Below, piece by piece: positions 5,814 through 29,595 of a stretch of DNA of 32,987 nucleotides. The notes below the pieces were generated by a model. The model was not told the DNA's origin, did not search any database, and saw only the letters and a list, made by a program, of their open reading frames with translations. This DNA comes from Bacteroidales bacterium. GTDB lineage: Bacteria > Bacteroidota > Bacteroidia > Bacteroidales > UBA12170. A program made the position numbers and the translations under genes. The stretch covers positions 1 through 32,987 of the forward strand of contig JAQIBR010000147.1 in assembly GCA_027858955.1 (NCBI GenBank). Reading direction: 5' to 3'. Each line of letters starts with the position of its first letter. The stretch's first letter is position 1.

Positions 5814-6158
5814 TTAATCATTTTCAAATAGATGACTAATTTTATCTTTGATAATATTTTCGACATTGACATTAATCATTCCCAATTTCCTTTTAATCAA
5901 CTTTTGTGGTATAGTTACCATTTTATGTAACCTAATAACAGAATCAACTGTCAATCCAGTGCCAGTCCAATTGGCACTATTTTTTTCAATAACAAAATCA
6001 CTTTCAATGTGTTCATCTGGAATCTTACTTGAAATAAAGGCAATAATAACGTGCTCATGCTTTCCTATAGCCGAAGTCAAACAGAGTGTTGGCCTGACTT
6101 TAGAAGCAGAAAAATCATCAAAGGGAAAAGGAACTAATACAATTGAGTTCTTAATCAT
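5814..6158 (-). CDS. PemK/MazF-family toxin
   Basis: The product begins MIKNSIVLVPFPFDD and continues SASKVRPTLCL, the typical N-terminus of the PemK/MazF endoribonuclease toxin fold (first beta strand, then the K-x-R-P motif whose Arg contributes to the active site). This start gives 114 residues, normal for the family. An in-frame ATG lies 18 bp further upstream (6176), but the 6158 start gives the classic coupled overlap ATGATTAA with the antitoxin stop and has a GGAG sequence 9 bp before it, so I prefer it. The partner gene is immediately upstream on the same strand. Expected action is RNA cleavage in the cytoplasm when the antitoxin is lost; the cleavage site cannot be predicted here. 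Confidence 0.85.
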   Translation of the reverse strand: MIKNSIVLVPFPFDDFSASKVRPTLCLTSAIGKHEHVIIAFISSKIPDEHIESDFVIEKNSANWTGTGLTVDSVIRLHKMVTIPQKLIKRKLGMINVNVENIIKDKISHLFEND

Positions 6159-6390
6159 TAAATGGTTCTCCATCATTATTTGAATAAATATCTTCTGAAC
6201 TATCCTTTAAAAAATCAAAAGCAGGATTATTTGATATTGAAGACAGCCATAGTTGTTCTTCGTCTTGTTCAGTATTTATATCATCAATTAAAATTATGAT
6301 ACGAACTTTACTATCTGATCTATCCAGTTGATAATCAATTTTTAAATGTCCGGTCTTATCTGTTTTTGAATTTATTTCAATTGCTTTCAT
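6151..6390 (-). CDS. Antitoxin-like partner of the PemK/MazF toxin
   Basis: This 79-residue acidic protein starts MKAIEINSKTDKTGHLKIDY, then a beta-rich stretch KVRIIILIDD, then an acidic tail EDIYSNNDGEPF. This is the pattern of small antitoxin-like proteins (the K-A-I-E-I/.../K-V-R-V-I-I-L-L form) that accompany PemK or PIN toxins in Bacteroidetes and cyanobacteria. It contains no clear DNA-binding motif. Its stop codon overlaps the toxin start by 8 nt, so translation is coupled. A good AAAGGA sequence lies 2 bp before the ATG, and a TATCTTTG -7-like box is at 6408-6415. The pairing is strong; the family name is from memory of the pattern. Confidence 0.75.
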   Translation of the reverse strand: MKAIEINSKTDKTGHLKIDYQLDRSDSKVRIIILIDDINTEQDEEQLWLSSISNNPAFDFLKDSSEDIYSNNDGEPFND

Positions 6391-6513: not shown

Positions 6514-7245
6514 CTAAACATCAAACTTCTTTCTAATTTCTTGCTCCATCTTAAAAAAATACTGTTTCTCAAGACTATACAGTTTGATTTCAAAAATATA
6601 ACCAGACTCATCTTCATGAATAATTTCTACTTTTGGTGGCCGTTTTATTGATGCCCAAGGAAGGCTTAAAATTTCAAAACGGATTTTATCTATTTTAGTC
6701 TCAGCTTTGTCGCTTTTATTTGATTTTATAGTAAATGCGTGACTTAAAACCATTTCGCCGGGATGCACTTTAATAATGGTTTGGTTGCTTAATTTGCTGT
6801 ATGGAATATAAATTATCTCACCCGAATCGCTTTCAATTTTAAATAAACGGTTGCTCATTTCAATAATTTTTCCTTCAAAATTATTGACCTGAATAATATC
6901 TTTTTCCTTAAAATCTTGGTTCATTTTAAACAAAGCTCCGGCAATAAAATCTTTAATAGAAAACCATAAAATCCAAAATGCACTAAGCATCAATAATAAA
7001 AATAAACCCCAGGAATACAGCTTGTTAGAATCTGAGAATTGTTGAATACAAATTATTATAAAAATTGACCAAATTCCAACTTCGAAAATAGCAATATATT
7101 GTTTTATTAGATTCTTTTTCGATTCGCTTTTAGTAAGATAGGGGATAAATCGTTTTGAAATGAATAAAACCACAAACATAAGCAGAGCAAGGCCGCTAAA
7201 AAACAATAGCTCAAAATTCGAGAAAGTTAAAAAATCGTTTTCCAT
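6514..7245 (-). CDS. Small MscS-like mechanosensitive channel protein
   Basis: This 243-residue membrane protein has three to four hydrophobic segments in its first ~110 residues (about 10-30, 48-68, 76-100). A soluble domain follows whose start, GALFKMNQDFKEKDIIQV...FEGKIIEMSNRLFKIESDSGEIIYIPYSKL, is the MscS beta domain (family pattern G-D-x-I-x-V...G-x-V-x-x-I...T-x-x-x-x-x-D...I-P-N-S). The usual I-P-N-S is I-P-Y-S here. It should gate ion or osmolyte flow across the inner membrane under tension. It begins 12 bp after the stop of the huge permease-ATPase gene on the same strand, so the two are almost surely cotranscribed. That arrangement joins an ion importer with a tension-released channel. 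Confidence 0.83.
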   Translation of the reverse strand: MENDFLTFSNFELLFFSGLALLMFVVLFISKRFIPYLTKSESKKNLIKQYIAIFEVGIWSIFIIICIQQFSDSNKLYSWGLFLLLMLSAFWILWFSIKDFIAGALFKMNQDFKEKDIIQVNNFEGKIIEMSNRLFKIESDSGEIIYIPYSKLSNQTIIKVHPGEMVLSHAFTIKSNKSDKAETKIDKIRFEILSLPWASIKRPPKVEIIHEDESGYIFEIKLYSLEKQYFFKMEQEIRKKFDV

Positions 7246-7257
7246 AGTTTTTATTCT

Positions 7258-10200
7258 TTAAAGCAATTGCCTTTTAATAAGTGATTTTTGCATAAATGCC
7301 AGCATATAAGGGTTCAACTCAAGAATACCATCTGCCAATTGATTTAACAAGCCAGCACGTTTTAGAATATTTACCTTCAGTTGAACATTGCTTTCCGATT
7401 CTCGTGTGACACGAATTAATTTATTCATATTCATTCGTTTATGCAAGATAAACTGCATAATAAAGATCATCCAATCCATTTCAAGAAAATTGAAAACAGA
7501 AGAATTTGGTTGAATGGGTTTTCTAATAAATAATGTATTATTTTCAATTTCATTTATATGAGCTATCCAACTTTGCAAGGCAATACCAATATTGCCTTCG
7601 GAATAGTTGAAATAGCTTGAAAAGAGCCTTGCTGTTTGCCATGAATGCAATGCGGATTCTGGTGTATTCTTAAAATGAAACTGCATGCCAGATGATGTAT
7701 GCCTTTTTAAAATGGCATCCTTAATTTCCTTAGCATTCATGGGCGAAAGTTCAATCAAGTTTATGAAATTACTTTCAATTTTCCGATAATGATTGATTAG
7801 TTTAAAGGCATTAATATCACATGCAAATAAGAATAAATGTTGGCGAGAAAAATCTGCGATTAATTTTATGAATTGATCAATAACCCTCATCCCATTGGTG
7901 CTTTTTTCCCACCATAGTTCTAGATCATCAATAATCAAAACACTTTCGTTTGGTAAACTGTTTAAAATGTTTGCAAATGTTCCCGATTTTTCTGTTGCCG
8001 TTCGAAAACTGGAAAGTAAATCAGAAGGAGCAGTAGATCCGGTAAAAGGAGCTGAAATATGATAAATTTCGCCTTGAATATCCAGTTTATTAATGAGCTG
8101 GTTTAGAAAGAAAGTTTTGCCGGTACTCCTTTCGCCAGTAACTAAAATACCTCCTTTATAGCCATTTCTGAAGTGATGAAAACTTTTTACAGCAGAATCG
8201 AATTCAGCTTCTCGGCCCACCCAGAAATCTTTAATATAGAATTGTTTACTTAAAAAGAGTTGTTTGTAATAATCAGGGAGTTTCTGCAATATCTTTGAAG
8301 AAACACTAACTTTGTCTTTAAACTCCAATAAATCGTTCACACGGGTTTCTTTTTTAAGCATCGCTTTGCTTAGTTTTCGTGCTAAAATTAGTCCGCTACT
8401 TTGATTATACCACAGCTTATTAAGTTGATTTACAATAAAAGAATTAAAATGTTTTAATTGCTTTCTAAGCTTTTCAAACTCATGTTTTTGTGTATGTACA
8501 CGAATATATTGTTTCAGGTTGGTTAAATTTGATACAAATGCATGAAGTTGGAGAGTTTTTTTAATATGTAAATCTCGGGTCTCGAAAAAGTTGGAAAGTT
8601 CTTTTGTTTTATCTTCAAACTCAGCCTCTATCGTGCCAAGTTTTTCCCTTGTCAATCCAACTAAGGCTTCCCAATCTAATTGGTTATCTTTATCAGTTTC
8701 CTTTTTATCAAAAAGATTTAATTGATGGAAAAGCTTATTAAATTCATTTTTCGATAATTGAAGTTCAGATCCAAATTTGAAAAGAAATTCACGTAGTTTG
8801 CTGCTTAGCTCTTTTTCTATAAGATATTCAACAGTACGAATTACAGAAGCTTGTACTACATCTAAAGATTGAAAATATAGAGCTGGGGTATCTTTTCGTA
8901 AACTATCTGAGTATAGCTCAAGTTTCTCAGGAAAAATATTTGTTGCAGCTTTAATTTTTTCGTTTCGAGTATAGTTAATATCCAACATTTGTTGGGAAAC
9001 AAAGTATTCTGAGTTGGGTGTATAACCCTTTATAAGCTCACGAACATTATCAGGATTAGCTTCATTTTTCTCTATTAAACTTAGAATCCCCTTTTGTAGA
9101 TTTTTTACCGGTTGTATACAATCAGTCTTGATATTCTGTGATAACTCATAAAGTTCTTGTCCCAGGTAGAGACGCGTTTGCTGATTGAATTGTAGCAGTC
9201 CATTATTAAGAATATTTTGATTGTAGATCAGATATAAGTTATTGCTGAATAATCCGGCAAAGGTGTTTAGTTGTTTTTTTAGTTTCTTGCTAGTAACATA
9301 ATAATCAATAAGATGGTTTTCGTATGCATTTGGAAATAAACCTGACAGTTGTGCTGAAAAAGTATTTAAATCGGCATTTATCCTCTCATTAGCATGTATT
9401 TGTATATTCTTGATGCTGCTACTAAGAGTATGGCTTAAATTTTGAATAAATTCTTTAATCTGTTTCTGTTTATTATGAAGGTCTTCCTTTGTAGGAAGTT
9501 CGGTTTGATATATTTCGGGCTTTAAAGTTTCAAAAACATCAGAAATTTTCTGCATATTATTAATAAAAGCATTACCCATTATGTAATTCATATGATCGAA
9601 TTCGATCAATGATTGATAAACACCCTCATAAGCCTTATGTGGGAAATGTGTGTCTACTAGGCTCTGATAATTAACATAATACGGAAATTTATGAAAAATT
9701 GACCACAAAGGTTTTAATCGATTTTTTGCTTTTTGAGTTTCTTTATCTTTAATATCAAAAGCGAGAATCTTTTCTTTTGTTAATTGAATTTTAATCCTAG
9801 AAGGCTCTTGTTTTACTAATTTATCGACAAGCTCCATGAAATTAGTTATTTCATGTGCAATGGTTTCAGCCATTATCGGAATCTGGTTTTCGCTCAATTC
9901 ACCCAAATATTGATTTCGCGCACGCATAAGAATGTTATGTTGGGCCACAATAACCTTCTTAAAACTATCTACCGTTTGATGCGATTCTAATCGATTCCCA
10001 AGGTTTTGGAAACTATGGTCAACAATATTTAATAGGTTCTGAATAAGGTTATTATGAAATTCTCCGGAAGCTCTTAATTCACTATTTAATAAAGTAGAAT
10101 GATAGTTTAGTAATTTAGAAGTGAAATTTTCGAATGCTTGAGTAAGTTGAGGTTCTTTTGGAGTGTCTGGGTTCTCAAAAATTACTTTATCGTCTTGATG

Positions 10201-12429
10201 TTCAGCCATAAACATTTCATTATGAACATTTACTAGAAGTTCGCCCATATGCATCTCTTTAAATAGTGAGGAACTCTTAATAAGTACTACGGTGCCTATA
10301 TCTTTGCATAATTTATTCGTTTTTTCAACAAATTCTTTTTCTTTTCCGGCCTCCAATTGCGGGAATCCTAAAAATGTCAAATCAGAATCAATTGATTCTT
10401 TTTCAATAATGTCGTAAAAACTTTTTTGTTCTATTTCATTATCAATAACAAAAATATCTGCTTGTATTCGGAGGTTCTCAAGTATGCTTTTGGAAGTTTC
10501 ATATATAGAAGATGTTAATTCCGATTGATCGTTCACAATTATCAGTCTGATTTGGGCTCCGGACCAAGCATCGGAATTCAATAAAAATTTAGAAAAGTAT
10601 AAAGCTAGGTTCCCGTTATTGCTACCACCACGCCACCAAACATCTATTTTTTTATATTTTCCAAATCCACGGTTTTTCTCGTAATCTACCAAAAGCACAT
10701 TCATATCGAGATCGATCAAATTATTGATGCTTTGCACAAAACGTGTTGGTTCAGAGCTTTGTCGAGCCCAACCCATCATTACAGTATTGGGTTCTACACC
10801 TGAAAAACCATAGGTTTGTGCAATCATTTCAATACCTTCATAAATATTGTTCACCAATTGCTGCCTAGTATAAACTCCCGGATATTTTTCACTTATTTCG
10901 CTATTTATATTTTGATCTTTTTTTGCAAATAAAAATTGTTCATCTACATTAACTTTCAAATCAAAATTTGAAATAAAACCATGATCTCCAACAAAATTGC
11001 TTCCTAAATCTATTAGATGAGTCCTAACATTGCTACCGCCACTAAATAAAATAATATTTGGTTCCCAATTTTTCTCATTCAAAGTATTTTGACTGATTTT
11101 ATGCAAGCTCGATCGTGCCAGAGAGGTCCATACGCTATGCCAAACATTGCTCATATTTCCCTGAATTTCGTTACGTTTAAGTAAGATATATATGCCAAAA
11201 ATTATTAGCAAAGCAATAGCCATAGCCAATGTGTCTATTTTAAACATTACTCCCATACTGGCAATAAAACCAATAATTCCAATCCATTTAGGAATTTTTA
11301 AACTAGGACGGAAATCAGAATTGGCCCATCTTTCCAGTACATATGCTAAATTTATGGAACCGTAGGCAGCAATATAAAACATGGTTACAATCACAGCAAT
11401 TACATCCAATTCACCTATCAAGATTCCTATTTCGGCAATAATAAAAGTAAAAATTAAAGCCTGTCTGGGCTCGTTGTTTTTTCCTGCTCCTTTTGCAAAG
11501 AATTTAGGAGTTATCCTATCGATAGACATAGCTTGCAATATCCTGGAAGCACCTAATAATCCTCCTAAAGCAGATGATAAAGTAGCTCCCCATATACCGG
11601 CAACGACCAAAGGCGAAAACCAGGCAATTTTCATTAGGAAATTTGTATCGCTTAGTAAAAGTTCGCGATCGACATACAAAGCGAAGAATAATGCCAAGGC
11701 AATATATATGACCAAACCTACTCCGATTGAAGCAAGAGTGCCAAGTGGAATTGAAGATTTGGGCGATTTTAAATCGCCTGACATAGCTACGCCTGCAGTA
11801 AATCCGGTAACGGCCGGGAAGAATATTGCAAAAATGACAATAAAGTTTGGAGCTTCTGGTGCAACACTAAGACTGGGAACTACTTGTTGCACATCTGCTT
11901 GAAGAAAAATGCCAACGATTATGCTTATCAGCGAAAGTGCTATAGCACCAAGAATTAAAAATTGTGTTTTAATTGCAATTGAAGTTGAGATATAAGCCAG
12001 AATTACCAAAACAATAATAACTATTGTTCCAATTATGCGTGTATCGTTTACGCTTCCTTGCATCCCCAGGAAGTTGGAAATAGCTTCTATACTAATAAAA
12101 TTTTCGACAAAACCGACTATATAAAGTGCTATACTAAAGGCAGTTCCAACAAATAATGTAATACCGATAGCTCCGCCCATAGGTAAACCCAGACTTCGCG
12201 AAAGCATAAAATAAATGCCGCCGGTTTTAATCTTTTTGTCTGTTGCAATTGATGAAATACTTAATCCCGTTGAAATACTTATAACGTGAGCAAGAAGAAT
12301 AAGTCCGATAACAGCGTAAAGTCCCGCCTGGCCAACAACCCAGCCTAAACGTAAATACATAATTACACCTAAAATTGTAAGAATAGAAGGTGTGAAAACG
12401 CCGGCAAAAGTCCCAAATTTTTTGGACAT
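7258..12429 (-). CDS. Cation-chloride-cotransporter-like permease fused to C-terminal AAA/STAND-like ATPase (1723 aa)
   Basis: Residues 1 to about 420 are an APC-superfamily permease of the SLC12 type: GVFTPSILTILGVIMYLRLGWVVGQAG is at the N-terminus, followed by about 12 hydrophobic segments. Residues ~430-730 resemble the SLC12 cytosolic C-terminal domain, including NTVMMGWARQS (~546-556) and KKIDVWWRGGSNNGNLALYF (~590-610), parallel to the TIDVWW-GGL motif of NKCC/KCC proteins. Residues ~730-1410 are charged and helical with no recognised domain. Residues ~1410-1723 begin F-W-V-G-R-E-A-E and carry Walker A GERSTGKT (1432-1439, K1438) and Walker B VLIIDD (D1501, D1502), then a winged-helix-like end. 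Bacterial CCC proteins normally stop after the cytosolic domain, so the ATPase and linker are unusual. No frameshift is present: it is one open frame. The ATPase may gate or regulate cotransport; this is inference. Confidence 0.85.
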   Translation of the reverse strand: MSKKFGTFAGVFTPSILTILGVIMYLRLGWVVGQAGLYAVIGLILLAHVISISTGLSISSIATDKKIKTGGIYFMLSRSLGLPMGGAIGITLFVGTAFSIALYIVGFVENFISIEAISNFLGMQGSVNDTRIIGTIVIIVLVILAYISTSIAIKTQFLILGAIALSLISIIVGIFLQADVQQVVPSLSVAPEAPNFIVIFAIFFPAVTGFTAGVAMSGDLKSPKSSIPLGTLASIGVGLVIYIALALFFALYVDRELLLSDTNFLMKIAWFSPLVVAGIWGATLSSALGGLLGASRILQAMSIDRITPKFFAKGAGKNNEPRQALIFTFIIAEIGILIGELDVIAVIVTMFYIAAYGSINLAYVLERWANSDFRPSLKIPKWIGIIGFIASMGVMFKIDTLAMAIALLIIFGIYILLKRNEIQGNMSNVWHSVWTSLARSSLHKISQNTLNEKNWEPNIILFSGGSNVRTHLIDLGSNFVGDHGFISNFDLKVNVDEQFLFAKKDQNINSEISEKYPGVYTRQQLVNNIYEGIEMIAQTYGFSGVEPNTVMMGWARQSSEPTRFVQSINNLIDLDMNVLLVDYEKNRGFGKYKKIDVWWRGGSNNGNLALYFSKFLLNSDAWSGAQIRLIIVNDQSELTSSIYETSKSILENLRIQADIFVIDNEIEQKSFYDIIEKESIDSDLTFLGFPQLEAGKEKEFVEKTNKLCKDIGTVVLIKSSSLFKEMHMGELLVNVHNEMFMAEHQDDKVIFENPDTPKEPQLTQAFENFTSKLLNYHSTLLNSELRASGEFHNNLIQNLLNIVDHSFQNLGNRLESHQTVDSFKKVIVAQHNILMRARNQYLGELSENQIPIMAETIAHEITNFMELVDKLVKQEPSRIKIQLTKEKILAFDIKDKETQKAKNRLKPLWSIFHKFPYYVNYQSLVDTHFPHKAYEGVYQSLIEFDHMNYIMGNAFINNMQKISDVFETLKPEIYQTELPTKEDLHNKQKQIKEFIQNLSHTLSSSIKNIQIHANERINADLNTFSAQLSGLFPNAYENHLIDYYVTSKKLKKQLNTFAGLFSNNLYLIYNQNILNNGLLQFNQQTRLYLGQELYELSQNIKTDCIQPVKNLQKGILSLIEKNEANPDNVRELIKGYTPNSEYFVSQQMLDINYTRNEKIKAATNIFPEKLELYSDSLRKDTPALYFQSLDVVQASVIRTVEYLIEKELSSKLREFLFKFGSELQLSKNEFNKLFHQLNLFDKKETDKDNQLDWEALVGLTREKLGTIEAEFEDKTKELSNFFETRDLHIKKTLQLHAFVSNLTNLKQYIRVHTQKHEFEKLRKQLKHFNSFIVNQLNKLWYNQSSGLILARKLSKAMLKKETRVNDLLEFKDKVSVSSKILQKLPDYYKQLFLSKQFYIKDFWVGREAEFDSAVKSFHHFRNGYKGGILVTGERSTGKTFFLNQLINKLDIQGEIYHISAPFTGSTAPSDLLSSFRTATEKSGTFANILNSLPNESVLIIDDLELWWEKSTNGMRVIDQFIKLIADFSRQHLFLFACDINAFKLINHYRKIESNFINLIELSPMNAKEIKDAILKRHTSSGMQFHFKNTPESALHSWQTARLFSSYFNYSEGNIGIALQSWIAHINEIENNTLFIRKPIQPNSSVFNFLEMDWMIFIMQFILHKRMNMNKLIRVTRESESNVQLKVNILKRAGLLNQLADGILELNPYMLAFMQKSLIKRQLL

Positions 12430-21886: not shown

Positions 21887-21958
21887 GGTCCGTTCGTCTA
21901 GGGGTTAGGACGCCAGGTTTTCATCCTGGTAACAGGGGTTCGATTCCCCTACGGACTA
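21887..21958 (+). tRNA. tRNA-Glu (anticodon UUC), copy 1
   Basis: The 72-nt gene folds into a full cloverleaf. The acceptor stem is GGTCCGT/ACGGACT (first pair G-U), the D arm GTCT/GGAC, the anticodon stem CCAGG/CCTGG with loop TTTTCAT (anticodon TTC), and the T arm AGGGG-TTCGATT-CCCCT. The discriminator base is A and CCA is not encoded. It reads GAA/GAG codons. It is the first member of a short cluster with a second identical copy at 22085. Confidence 0.95.
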
Positions 21959-21982
21959 CAGCACAAAGTTCTATTATATATT

Positions 21983-22001
21983 GGTCCGTTCGTCTAGGGG
22001 T
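21983..22001 (+). pseudogene. Truncated tRNA-Glu (5' 19 nt only)
   Basis: GGTCCGTTCGTCTAGGGGT is identical to the first 19 nt of the two flanking tRNA-Glu genes and is preceded, like copy 2, by ATT. The identity stops in the D loop, where TCCCGATAGCTATCGGGA begins, and the anticodon, T arm and 3' acceptor strand are missing. It cannot make a tRNA. Confidence 0.85.
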
Positions 22002-22003
22002 AA

Positions 22004-22087
22004 GTCCCGATAGCTATCGGGAGCAAGGTTTGATCAATAATTTGATTGAAATCAAGACTCTCAAACGGAAATACCAATAAAATTGGT
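22004..22087 (+). repeat. Palindrome-rich insert interrupting the tRNA-Glu remnant
   Basis: The segment after the tRNA fragment contains the perfect 16-bp-plus palindrome TCCCGATAGCTATCGGGA (22004-22021), a gene-free stretch with related TTTGATCAA and TTGATTGAAATCAA sequences, and a final hairpin ACCAAT-AAA-ATTGGT (22073-22087) whose right arm overlaps the 5' end of tRNA copy 2. The CCCGAT/ATCGGG core resembles the central hairpin of the MITE-like element at 17525-17663. Confidence 0.6.
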
Positions 22088-22156
22088 CCGTTCGTCTAGG
22101 GGTTAGGACGCCAGGTTTTCATCCTGGTAACAGGGGTTCGATTCCCCTACGGACTA
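22085..22156 (+). tRNA. tRNA-Glu (anticodon UUC), copy 2
   Basis: This gene is identical over all 72 nt to the tRNA-Glu at 21887-21958, with the same cloverleaf, anticodon TTC and lack of encoded CCA. It is followed by a strong terminator at 22172-22206. No separate promoter is visible, so it is probably transcribed from the promoter at 21841 together with copy 1 and the remnant. Confidence 0.95.
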
Positions 22157-27834: not shown

Positions 27835-29595
27835 ATGAAAAATTTCATTACTATTATTTTATTGGTATTATTGTCAATAAGCGCCTTTCCACAAAAGATT
27901 ATATCAGGTAAAAGCCAACCCAAAAGATTTGTAATTAATCCTACTTTCGTAAGAGGTATTCCGCCTAACTTATATATAAGCATGGACTTTGTGGATCAGG
28001 ATAATGATGGTTTGCTTGAAGCCGAAGAATCGGCTATGTTAACCTTAACCATTACCAACAAAGGCAGCGGTAATGCGCAAGGCTTAAAAATCTTAGTAAA
28101 AGATAGTCAATCCGACCCGGCACTAATCATCAATGACGGCAGAAGCATCCCTTTTCTAGCTCCAAATAAAAGCATTGAAGTTAAAATCCCAATTACAGCC
28201 AAACGTGATATTAAAGAAGCTGAACATAAAATGGAAATTTCAGTTAGCGAACATTTTGGTTATAATGCTGATCCAGCATTTCTTATGCTAAATACTTTTG
28301 CATTTCAAGAACCGGAATTGGTATTTAGTGGTCTTGAGATTGTTGATATTGGTGAAGGAACAGGAGCTATTAAAGTAGATGGCCAACTTCAAGCGGGCGA
28401 AATGGTAAAAGCAAAGATAGTAGTGCAAAATATTGGTCAAAACATTGCTCCGAACACAATCTTTAGTGTTACATCCAATGATAATGATATTTACCTCGCC
28501 AATAATTCAGGCAAACTGGGTGATTTGGGTATTGGAGAAGTTAAAGAATTTTGGATAACCGTCAGTCCAAACAAAAGAGTTGCTAATGAAGGAAAATTAC
28601 CAATTTATCTAAGCTTAAAAAACGATTATGGAGTTGGTAATATGTACAATTTTAACTTACCCGTTCAGATGAATCAAAAACCGCCTGAGCCAAAAGTATT
28701 AGCTATTAAACCAAATGAAAATAAAATTAAAAACATTGCCAGATTTGAATATAACTCATCAAGAATTACGGCTAATATTGGAAATATAATTGACATTAAA
28801 CAAGTACCGCCATCAAAAACAATTAGAAAGGATGCTATTGCTATAATTATCGGTGTTGAGAAATATAAAAATTTTATCGATGCACCTTATGCTTCTAACG
28901 ATGCTCGCATCATAAAAGAATACTTTAAAAATGTACTTGGTATTAGTCAAGTGATTGCATATACCGATAAGCAAGTTACAGGTTTCTTTTTCGATGATAC
29001 ATTTAATCCATATTATGGTGAATTACAAAAAGCTATTATAAAAGGAAAAACAGAAGTGTTTGTGTTTTATTCCGGTCATGGAATGCCTTCAAAAGATGGA
29101 GATAAAATATTCCTTTTCCCTTATGATGGCAGAATAGAAGCTATTGAAACACAGGGATTTAATTTGAACAAATTTTATACTGATTTGGATGCTTTGGATG
29201 CAAAAAATGTGACAATATTTATTGATGCCTGTTTTAGTGGAGTTTCAAGAGCTTCCGAGAATTACAAGATAGAAAATCTGATTTCGATGAAGGGAGTGGC
29301 GATAAAACCTAAAATTACTCAACCATGGGAATCCAATCCAAATTTTACTGTATTTTCTTCTTCTGCATTCGATCAAACCTCACTGGGTTTTGATGATTCC
29401 GAAACAGGATTGTTTACTTATTCTTTATGTGCAGGATTACAAGGTAAAGCTGATGAAAATGGCGATAAAAAAATTACATCGGGCGAATTGGCAGACTATG
29501 TTCAAAAAAAGGTGAAAGAATTATCAGTGAAAATTCACGGATTGCAAACACCACAATTTAACGGAAATCGTAATATTGTTTTAGGAGAATATTAA
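27835..29595 (+). CDS. Exported caspase-family (C14/metacaspase-like) protease
   Basis: The 586-residue protein has a signal peptide (MKNFITIILLVLLSISAFPQ). Residues ~40-280 are beta-rich, of CARDB/Ig-like appearance (MLTLTITNKGSGNAQGLKI, MVKAKIVVQNIGQNIAP). The caspase domain spans ~333-586: KDAIAIIIGVEKYKNF opens it, the catalytic His is H415 in FVFYSGHGMP, and the nucleophile is C466 in IFIDACFSG, the metacaspase-type D-A-C-F-S-G motif. The dyad is intact. Two EF-hand-like loops, DQDNDGLLEAEE (54-65) and DENGDKKITSGE (~540-551), suggest Ca2+ binding, which activates many metacaspases. The export signal places the protease in the periplasm or outside, unlike most cytosolic bacterial caspases. 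It is followed 16 bp later by a barrel protein. Substrates are unknown. Confidence 0.88.
   Translation: MKNFITIILLVLLSISAFPQKIISGKSQPKRFVINPTFVRGIPPNLYISMDFVDQDNDGLLEAEESAMLTLTITNKGSGNAQGLKILVKDSQSDPALIINDGRSIPFLAPNKSIEVKIPITAKRDIKEAEHKMEISVSEHFGYNADPAFLMLNTFAFQEPELVFSGLEIVDIGEGTGAIKVDGQLQAGEMVKAKIVVQNIGQNIAPNTIFSVTSNDNDIYLANNSGKLGDLGIGEVKEFWITVSPNKRVANEGKLPIYLSLKNDYGVGNMYNFNLPVQMNQKPPEPKVLAIKPNENKIKNIARFEYNSSRITANIGNIIDIKQVPPSKTIRKDAIAIIIGVEKYKNFIDAPYASNDARIIKEYFKNVLGISQVIAYTDKQVTGFFFDDTFNPYYGELQKAIIKGKTEVFVFYSGHGMPSKDGDKIFLFPYDGRIEAIETQGFNLNKFYTDLDALDAKNVTIFIDACFSGVSRASENYKIENLISMKGVAIKPKITQPWESNPNFTVFSSSAFDQTSLGFDDSETGLFTYSLCAGLQGKADENGDKKITSGELADYVQKKVKELSVKIHGLQTPQFNGNRNIVLGEY

Follow-up and report, generated by a model that had tools for sequence, protein, structure and literature searches.

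Organization of the locus

The window, the whole stretch of 32,987 nucleotides analysed here, contains on its minus strand a fusion gene whose frame runs from an ATG at 12429 to a stop at 7258 and encodes 1723 amino acids. The sequence-only reading had described a 1723-codon frame; it is indeed single and uninterrupted, and the strand, which that reading did not give, is minus (12429-7258). The plus strand of 7258-12429 is full of stops. The motifs that the same reading took as Walker A (GERSTGKT) and Walker B (VLIIDD) lie at residues 1432-1439 and from residue 1497, respectively. A second gene, for an MscS-family protein, starts 12 nt downstream of the fusion gene and had been missed. The features are as follows.

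7258..12429, minus strand: whole fusion gene, 1723 aa, SLC12 - helical stalk - AAA+ - winged helix (open reading frame and translation; 45 distinct full-length homologs)
11140..12429, minus strand: SLC12/CCC transmembrane domain, residues 1-430 (Pfam; phmmer alignment to human NKCC1)
10255..11139, minus strand: CCC cytosolic C-terminal domain, residues ~431-725 (phmmer match to KCC1/KCC3; PF03522 in homologs L041 and L044)
8290..10254, minus strand: long-helix stalk, residues ~726-1380 (AlphaFold model; hhalign to SLC12-less AAA proteins)
7510..8289, minus strand: AAA+ domain, ORC/Cdc6/STAND-like, residues 1381-1640 (Pfam, AlphaFold, fold matches, invariant Walker A Lys)
8136-8113, minus strand: Walker A GERSTGKT, within the AAA+ domain
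7941-7906, minus strand: Walker B and DDLELWWE motif
7261..7509, minus strand: C-terminal winged helix, residues 1641-1723 (AlphaFold model; alignment reaching ORC/TnsC C-terminal parts)
6514..7245, minus strand: MscS-family protein, 243 aa, TM3a Gly/Ala packing lost (Pfam PF00924, Foldseek; adjacency)

The draft assembly that contains the window is fragmented (273 contigs), and the gene could in principle be an ordinary fusion or an assembly artefact with no functional coupling. Against this stand 45 distinct, intact, full-length fusions with identities down to about 30%, one of them (G295) on a single contig of 3,566,706 bases (3.57 Mb), and the probability that we assign to this explanation is negligible. 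An assembly chimera is ruled out by the many independent copies. The 45 homologs carry both halves, so the proposal of a permease-ATPase fusion survives the possibility that homologs never contain both parts. A set of 60 relatives includes full-length homologs, 33-76% identical, from many families of the order, and the named relatives found by a scan with the window fusion are MAGs of Bacteroidales and other Bacteroidota, one of them labelled Chlorobiota. Our surveys for the AAA module covered Bacteroidota: of 393 genomes of the order, 74 have it, and most of the frames that carry it measure 1630-1780 aa, which matches the fusion in length; across the phylum the count is 77 of 395 genomes, usually without SLC12.

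The SLC12 half

The N-terminal half had been read as SLC12-like, and both searches bear this out. Pfam AA_permease (PF00324) matches residues 11-426 with 163 bits (E = 1.3e-47), and in phmmer searches of the PDB the N-terminal ~700 residues match human NKCC1 (E = 4.8e-75) and KCC1 (E = 2.2e-71). Since the KCC match extends to residue ~672-708, the fusion includes the CCC C-terminal domain. PF03522 is over its cut-off in homolog L041 and is also matched in L044; the Pfam search gives no PF03522 match in the window fusion protein itself. The curated CCC model TIGR00930 scores 397.5 bits, below a cut-off of 953.4 that is set for one annotated subfamily; therefore, we call the fusion a divergent CCC homolog and not a TIGR00930 member.

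We compared the ion-site residues of NKCC1 with those of the fusion in the phmmer alignment. The K+ site is kept, with Tyr383, Pro496 and Thr499 of NKCC1 corresponding to Tyr103, Pro205 and Thr208, and the Na+ site is kept as well, with Ala610, Ser613 and Ser614 corresponding to Ala282, Ser285 and Ser286 (sites as defined in PMC7035313). Retention of both Na+-site serines is NKCC/NCC-like. The Cl- site positions Gly301, Gly500 and Tyr686 of NKCC1 are likewise kept, as Gly21, Gly209 and Tyr356. The ion-site residues are conserved in at least 46 of 49 fused sequences (at least 94%), the exceptions being Thr18 (40/49) and Thr211, which is variable. An amino-acid permease identity is ruled out by the NKCC-specific site residues and by the best matches, which are CCCs. 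By homology, the SLC12 half is predicted to be an NKCC-like secondary cotransporter, and its substrate ions are predicted on the same grounds. Standalone SLC12 relatives of 738-760 aa occur in the same order; the flanking sequence available for them contains no MscS neighbour.

Helical stalk and AAA+ domain

The C-terminal part had been described as an AAA/STAND-like module behind a helical region. Pfam AAA matches residues 1428-1537 of the fusion with 25.1 bits, above the curated cut-off of 21.2. Modelled with AlphaFold on a 45-row alignment of fusion homologs, residues 701-1723 (mean pLDDT 80.6) are predicted to form long helices over ~600 residues and then an AAA+ core and a winged helix, so that the helical region, the module and an NTPase fold within residues 1400-1723 are all recovered. 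The structure models are single-chain, with a pTM of about 0.5 and shallow alignments (45 and 43 rows). In Foldseek and VIA-align comparisons the nearest folds, ranked first, are ORC2/Cdc6, RuvB, TnsC, RFC and NSF D2; the alignment of the AAA+ model with ORC2 (1w5t; Z = 16.0, rmsd 5.4, 320 residues aligned) spans the winged helix. Searched against PDB sequences, a profile of the AAA module gives marginal P-loop and winged-helix matches only, and the fold call therefore rests on the model. NCBIfam and PADLOC assign no family to the module. The Walker A lysine (residue 1438) is invariant in 45 of 45 fusion homologs, a pair of tryptophans (WW) follows Walker B in nearly all of them, and the module contains an invariant arginine in a KRHxSSG motif.

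The STAND/ORC-like fold with its winged helix, and the presence of NLRP3, NLRC4 and CED-4 among the fold matches of the AAA+ model, would suit a STAND-like switch for a stress- or phage-triggered collapse of ion balance, that is, a defence function, or else a membrane-tethered regulator that binds DNA through the winged helix. Such roles are, in our judgement, highly doubtful. PADLOC gives only weak P-loop-level matches, no relative is present in the viral contigs searched, and the neighbours conserved in close relatives are metabolic genes and not islands. As for DNA binding, winged helices are frequent in the ORC/STAND-type AAA class without it.

The MscS-family partner

The 243-residue product of the downstream gene matches PF00924 with 44.2 bits against a cut-off of 20.2, and Foldseek of its model returns MscS/YnaI (E = 3e-13) with a fold of three transmembrane helices and a beta-domain. 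An MscS gene lies directly downstream in 37 of 45 full fusions, with gaps of -47 to 75 nt. In the phylum survey, MscS is immediately downstream in all 30 of the best AAA-module loci, four of which are SLC12 fusions, the other 26 being mostly of the SLC12-less ~1000-aa or AAA-only class.

Nine genomes whose fusion has no adjacent MscS were searched genome-wide for this MscS type. In one of them (G542) it lies next to a second fusion; the remaining eight have a copy at another genomic site (E = 5e-52 to 6e-81). Among 26 order-mates without the AAA module, no match to this MscS type is better than 1e-26. The resulting co-occurrence in trans, 8/8 versus 0/26 (Fisher p = 5.5e-8), is independent of the query alignment, since the eight genomes lie outside it. 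The background is one to nine MscS genes per genome. The in-trans copies have unrelated neighbours (PAS/GAF proteins, PLP enzymes and others) and thus do not belong to another transporter operon. In G501 and G603 the fusion is present and this MscS type is not found at E = 1e-25; at one further locus (L168), a type-A-like AAA occurs without SLC12 and without an adjacent MscS.

The MscS C-terminus at two loci (L049:7369-8238 and L051:4011-5033) weakly resembles Pfam OSR1_C, with E values of 2.5e-4 and 0.04, narrowly below the cut-off. OSR1_C is the CCT domain of kinases that regulate SLC12 in animals. The likeness probably reflects a shared small fold, though it is an odd coincidence.

AAA-MscS pairs and their transporters

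The AAA module occurs in several arrangements, which we sorted into five sets: A, the SLC12 fusion; B, an AAA protein (~1000 aa, or AAA alone) with MscS; C, proteins of ~1500 aa; D, MscS upstream of AAA; and E, an AAA protein of 750-820 aa with an MscS-like protein and CPA. The stalk of set A is homologous to those of set B (hhalign, 98.7%) and set C (98.3%), showing that stalk and AAA travel together. Set C proteins begin with a CPA antiporter domain of ~450 residues (PF00999 in five of six members, best E = 2.3e-22), and the operon adds a CPA-like protein of 414 aa (hhalign, 97%), MscS, TrkH and TrkA. Profile searches of the PDB give no match for the set C CPA-like domains, and the CPA call comes from Pfam and hhalign. 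The set C operon is a second, independent transporter-AAA fusion. In set E, a Na_H_Exchanger gene follows the AAA and MscS genes. Given the SLC12 and CPA linkages, transporter-AAA linkage arose more than once and with different transporters, and all transporters linked to the AAA module are monovalent-ion transporters. The AAA module is primarily an MscS partner, and its own tree shows that two lineages or more acquired a link to transporters. That an NTPase is unexpected on a cotransporter, as the sequence-only reading put it, is therefore incomplete as a premise: the window fusion is not a one-off oddity.

The set C arrangement (CPA-like 414-aa protein, CPA-stalk-AAA fusion of ~1500 aa, MscS) is found at L087-L091 and L174, with TrkH and TrkA in the members checked; its hosts are perhaps cultivable Bacteroidota. 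At the set D loci L093, L094, L096, L098, L099 and L184, with MscS upstream of AAA, the Walker A lysine is replaced by arginine in most (GSGRT), which suggests that these proteins may bind nucleotide without hydrolysing it. Walker A is intact in set A, has the Lys-to-Arg change in most of set D and is mixed in set B, a trend partly opposite to that of TM3a described below. Because Walker A is degenerate in some SLC12-less AAA-MscS pairs, hydrolysis is not a property that all such partnerships share.

The near-obligate pairing with MscS, and fold matches that include remodellers and clamp loaders (NSF D2, RFC, RuvB), would also suit an assembly or remodelling role, in which the AAA+ protein puts together or takes apart MscS-family oligomers and the transporter is tethered so that both are produced in proportion, with no acute gating. 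The recurrence with several transporter types is left unexplained by such a factor, and set D has lost the Walker A lysine; we consider this role improbable.

The pore helix TM3a of the MscS-family proteins shows distinct differences between the sets. We counted small residues at eight TM3a positions where E. coli MscS has mainly Gly/Ala. The mean is 1.6 in set A, 2.0 in set C and 2.3 in set E, against 6.8-6.9 in sets B and D, and the window protein has two of eight. By threshold, the Gly/Ala packing is lost in 48 of 48 transporter-linked proteins (A, C, E) and canonical in 41 of 41 without a transporter (B, D); on the AAA tree, which separates A+E from B+C+D with strong support for both, this correlation amounts to about two independent transitions, too few for significance. 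Loss of the packing with transporter linkage is a strong pattern built on few events. One set B locus (L169) has a canonical MscS, yet a CPA gene lies 186 nt upstream.

These counts bear on the main rival explanation, in which the MscS-like protein still conducts and the AAA protein opens or shuts it against SLC12 uptake, one ATPase balancing uptake and release. AAA-MscS pairs without a transporter keep the canonical TM3a, so that the AAA module may originally have acted on the gating of a channel; uptake, moreover, is what SLC12 and TrkH perform. However, the pore helix of the SLC12-fused set retains only 1.6 Gly/Ala out of eight, with bulky Trp/Phe in the window protein, and we regard this explanation as unlikely.

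Proposed mechanism

In the reading that we prefer, turgor or volume would be controlled through an AAA+ regulator that ties monovalent-ion transport to a membrane subunit derived from MscS, and we give this reading a probability of about one half. The products of the fusion and its downstream gene would form a single membrane machine that keeps ions and turgor in balance. Its SLC12 part would move Na+/K+/Cl- as an NKCC-like secondary cotransporter, and the MscS-family subunit would serve mainly as an oligomeric membrane platform that senses tension or crowding, not as a free-running valve. The stalk and the ORC/STAND-like AAA+ domain would couple the two, and the nucleotide state, set by ATP and the MscS-like subunit, would switch the cotransporter. 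The computed support for this coupling consists of the fusion, both folds, the NKCC ion-site residues, Walker A, the MscS linkage and co-occurrence, and the recurrence of AAA-MscS with CPA and TrkH/TrkA. From these we infer a physical complex, a direction of signalling, tension sensing, ATP dependence and the substrate ions. The earlier suggestion of a sensor or an ATP-gated cotransporter agrees with the MscS, CPA and TrkH/TrkA context and appears to have been a reasonable direction.

Tentatively, we extend this coupling to an AAA+-controlled ion-homeostasis family in Bacteroidota, in which an ORC/STAND-type ATPase with MscS would be plugged into SLC12 (as a fusion) or CPA (as a fusion with TrkH/TrkA, or as an operon). 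In the transporter-linked forms the MscS valve may have become a sensor or scaffold, giving tension- or volume-regulated, ATP-dependent cotransport. How turgor is linked to K+/Na+/Cl- transport at the protein level in bacteria is largely an open question. If the coupling is real, the locus provides a simple two-gene bacterial system that joins sensing, ATP use and cotransport, and a bacterial NKCC1 relative with built-in regulation.

Comparison with known systems

The transmembrane and cytosolic C-terminal domains of the fusion align end to end with NKCC1/KCC, and the K+, Na+ and Cl- site residues are those of the SLC12/CCC family (NKCC1, KCCs and prokaryotic MaCCC). Unlike these proteins, the fusion adds ~1000 residues (stalk, AAA+ and winged helix) and a dedicated MscS partner. 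The partner shares with MscS/YnaI the PF00924 beta domain, three transmembrane helices and an alpha/beta C-terminal part, and differs in that bulky residues replace the TM3a Gly/Ala in the SLC12-linked set and in its association with an AAA gene. TrkH-TrkA and CPA/Kef systems place a monovalent-cation transporter under a cytosolic nucleotide-binding ring, and TrkH, TrkA and CPA genes occur within the sister AAA-MscS operons; in the fusion, however, an AAA+ of ORC/STAND type on a long stalk takes the place of the RCK domain as regulator, and an MscS-like subunit is included. The WNK-SPAK/OSR1 pathway provides ATP-using cytosolic control of CCC in volume regulation, through eukaryotic kinases acting in trans, whereas the AAA+ of the fusion is covalently attached.

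To our knowledge, no MscS-family protein or SLC12 cotransporter has been tied to an AAA+ ATPase, and no system is known to us that pairs MscS with an AAA+ ATPase, still less one in which the ion transporter can be exchanged. Searches of open-access PubMed Central full text yielded no description of an AAA+-MscS or such a transporter system, although each domain comes from a known superfamily.

Other features of the window

A PemK/MazF-like toxin gene (5814-6176, minus strand, PF02452) overlaps a small frame at ~6151-6390 on the minus strand, likely its antitoxin. The pair (5814-6390) forms an insertion that separates the MscS gene from a nitronate-monooxygenase-like gene, and no toxin gene is seen at that place in the loci of the closest relatives. 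A caspase-like (Peptidase C14) protein with a CARDB-type domain is encoded at 27835-29595 on the plus strand, downstream of a sigma factor and near Fib_succ_major and unannotated genes. Lastly, two tRNA genes with equal scores lie 126 nt apart at 21887-22156 on the plus strand.
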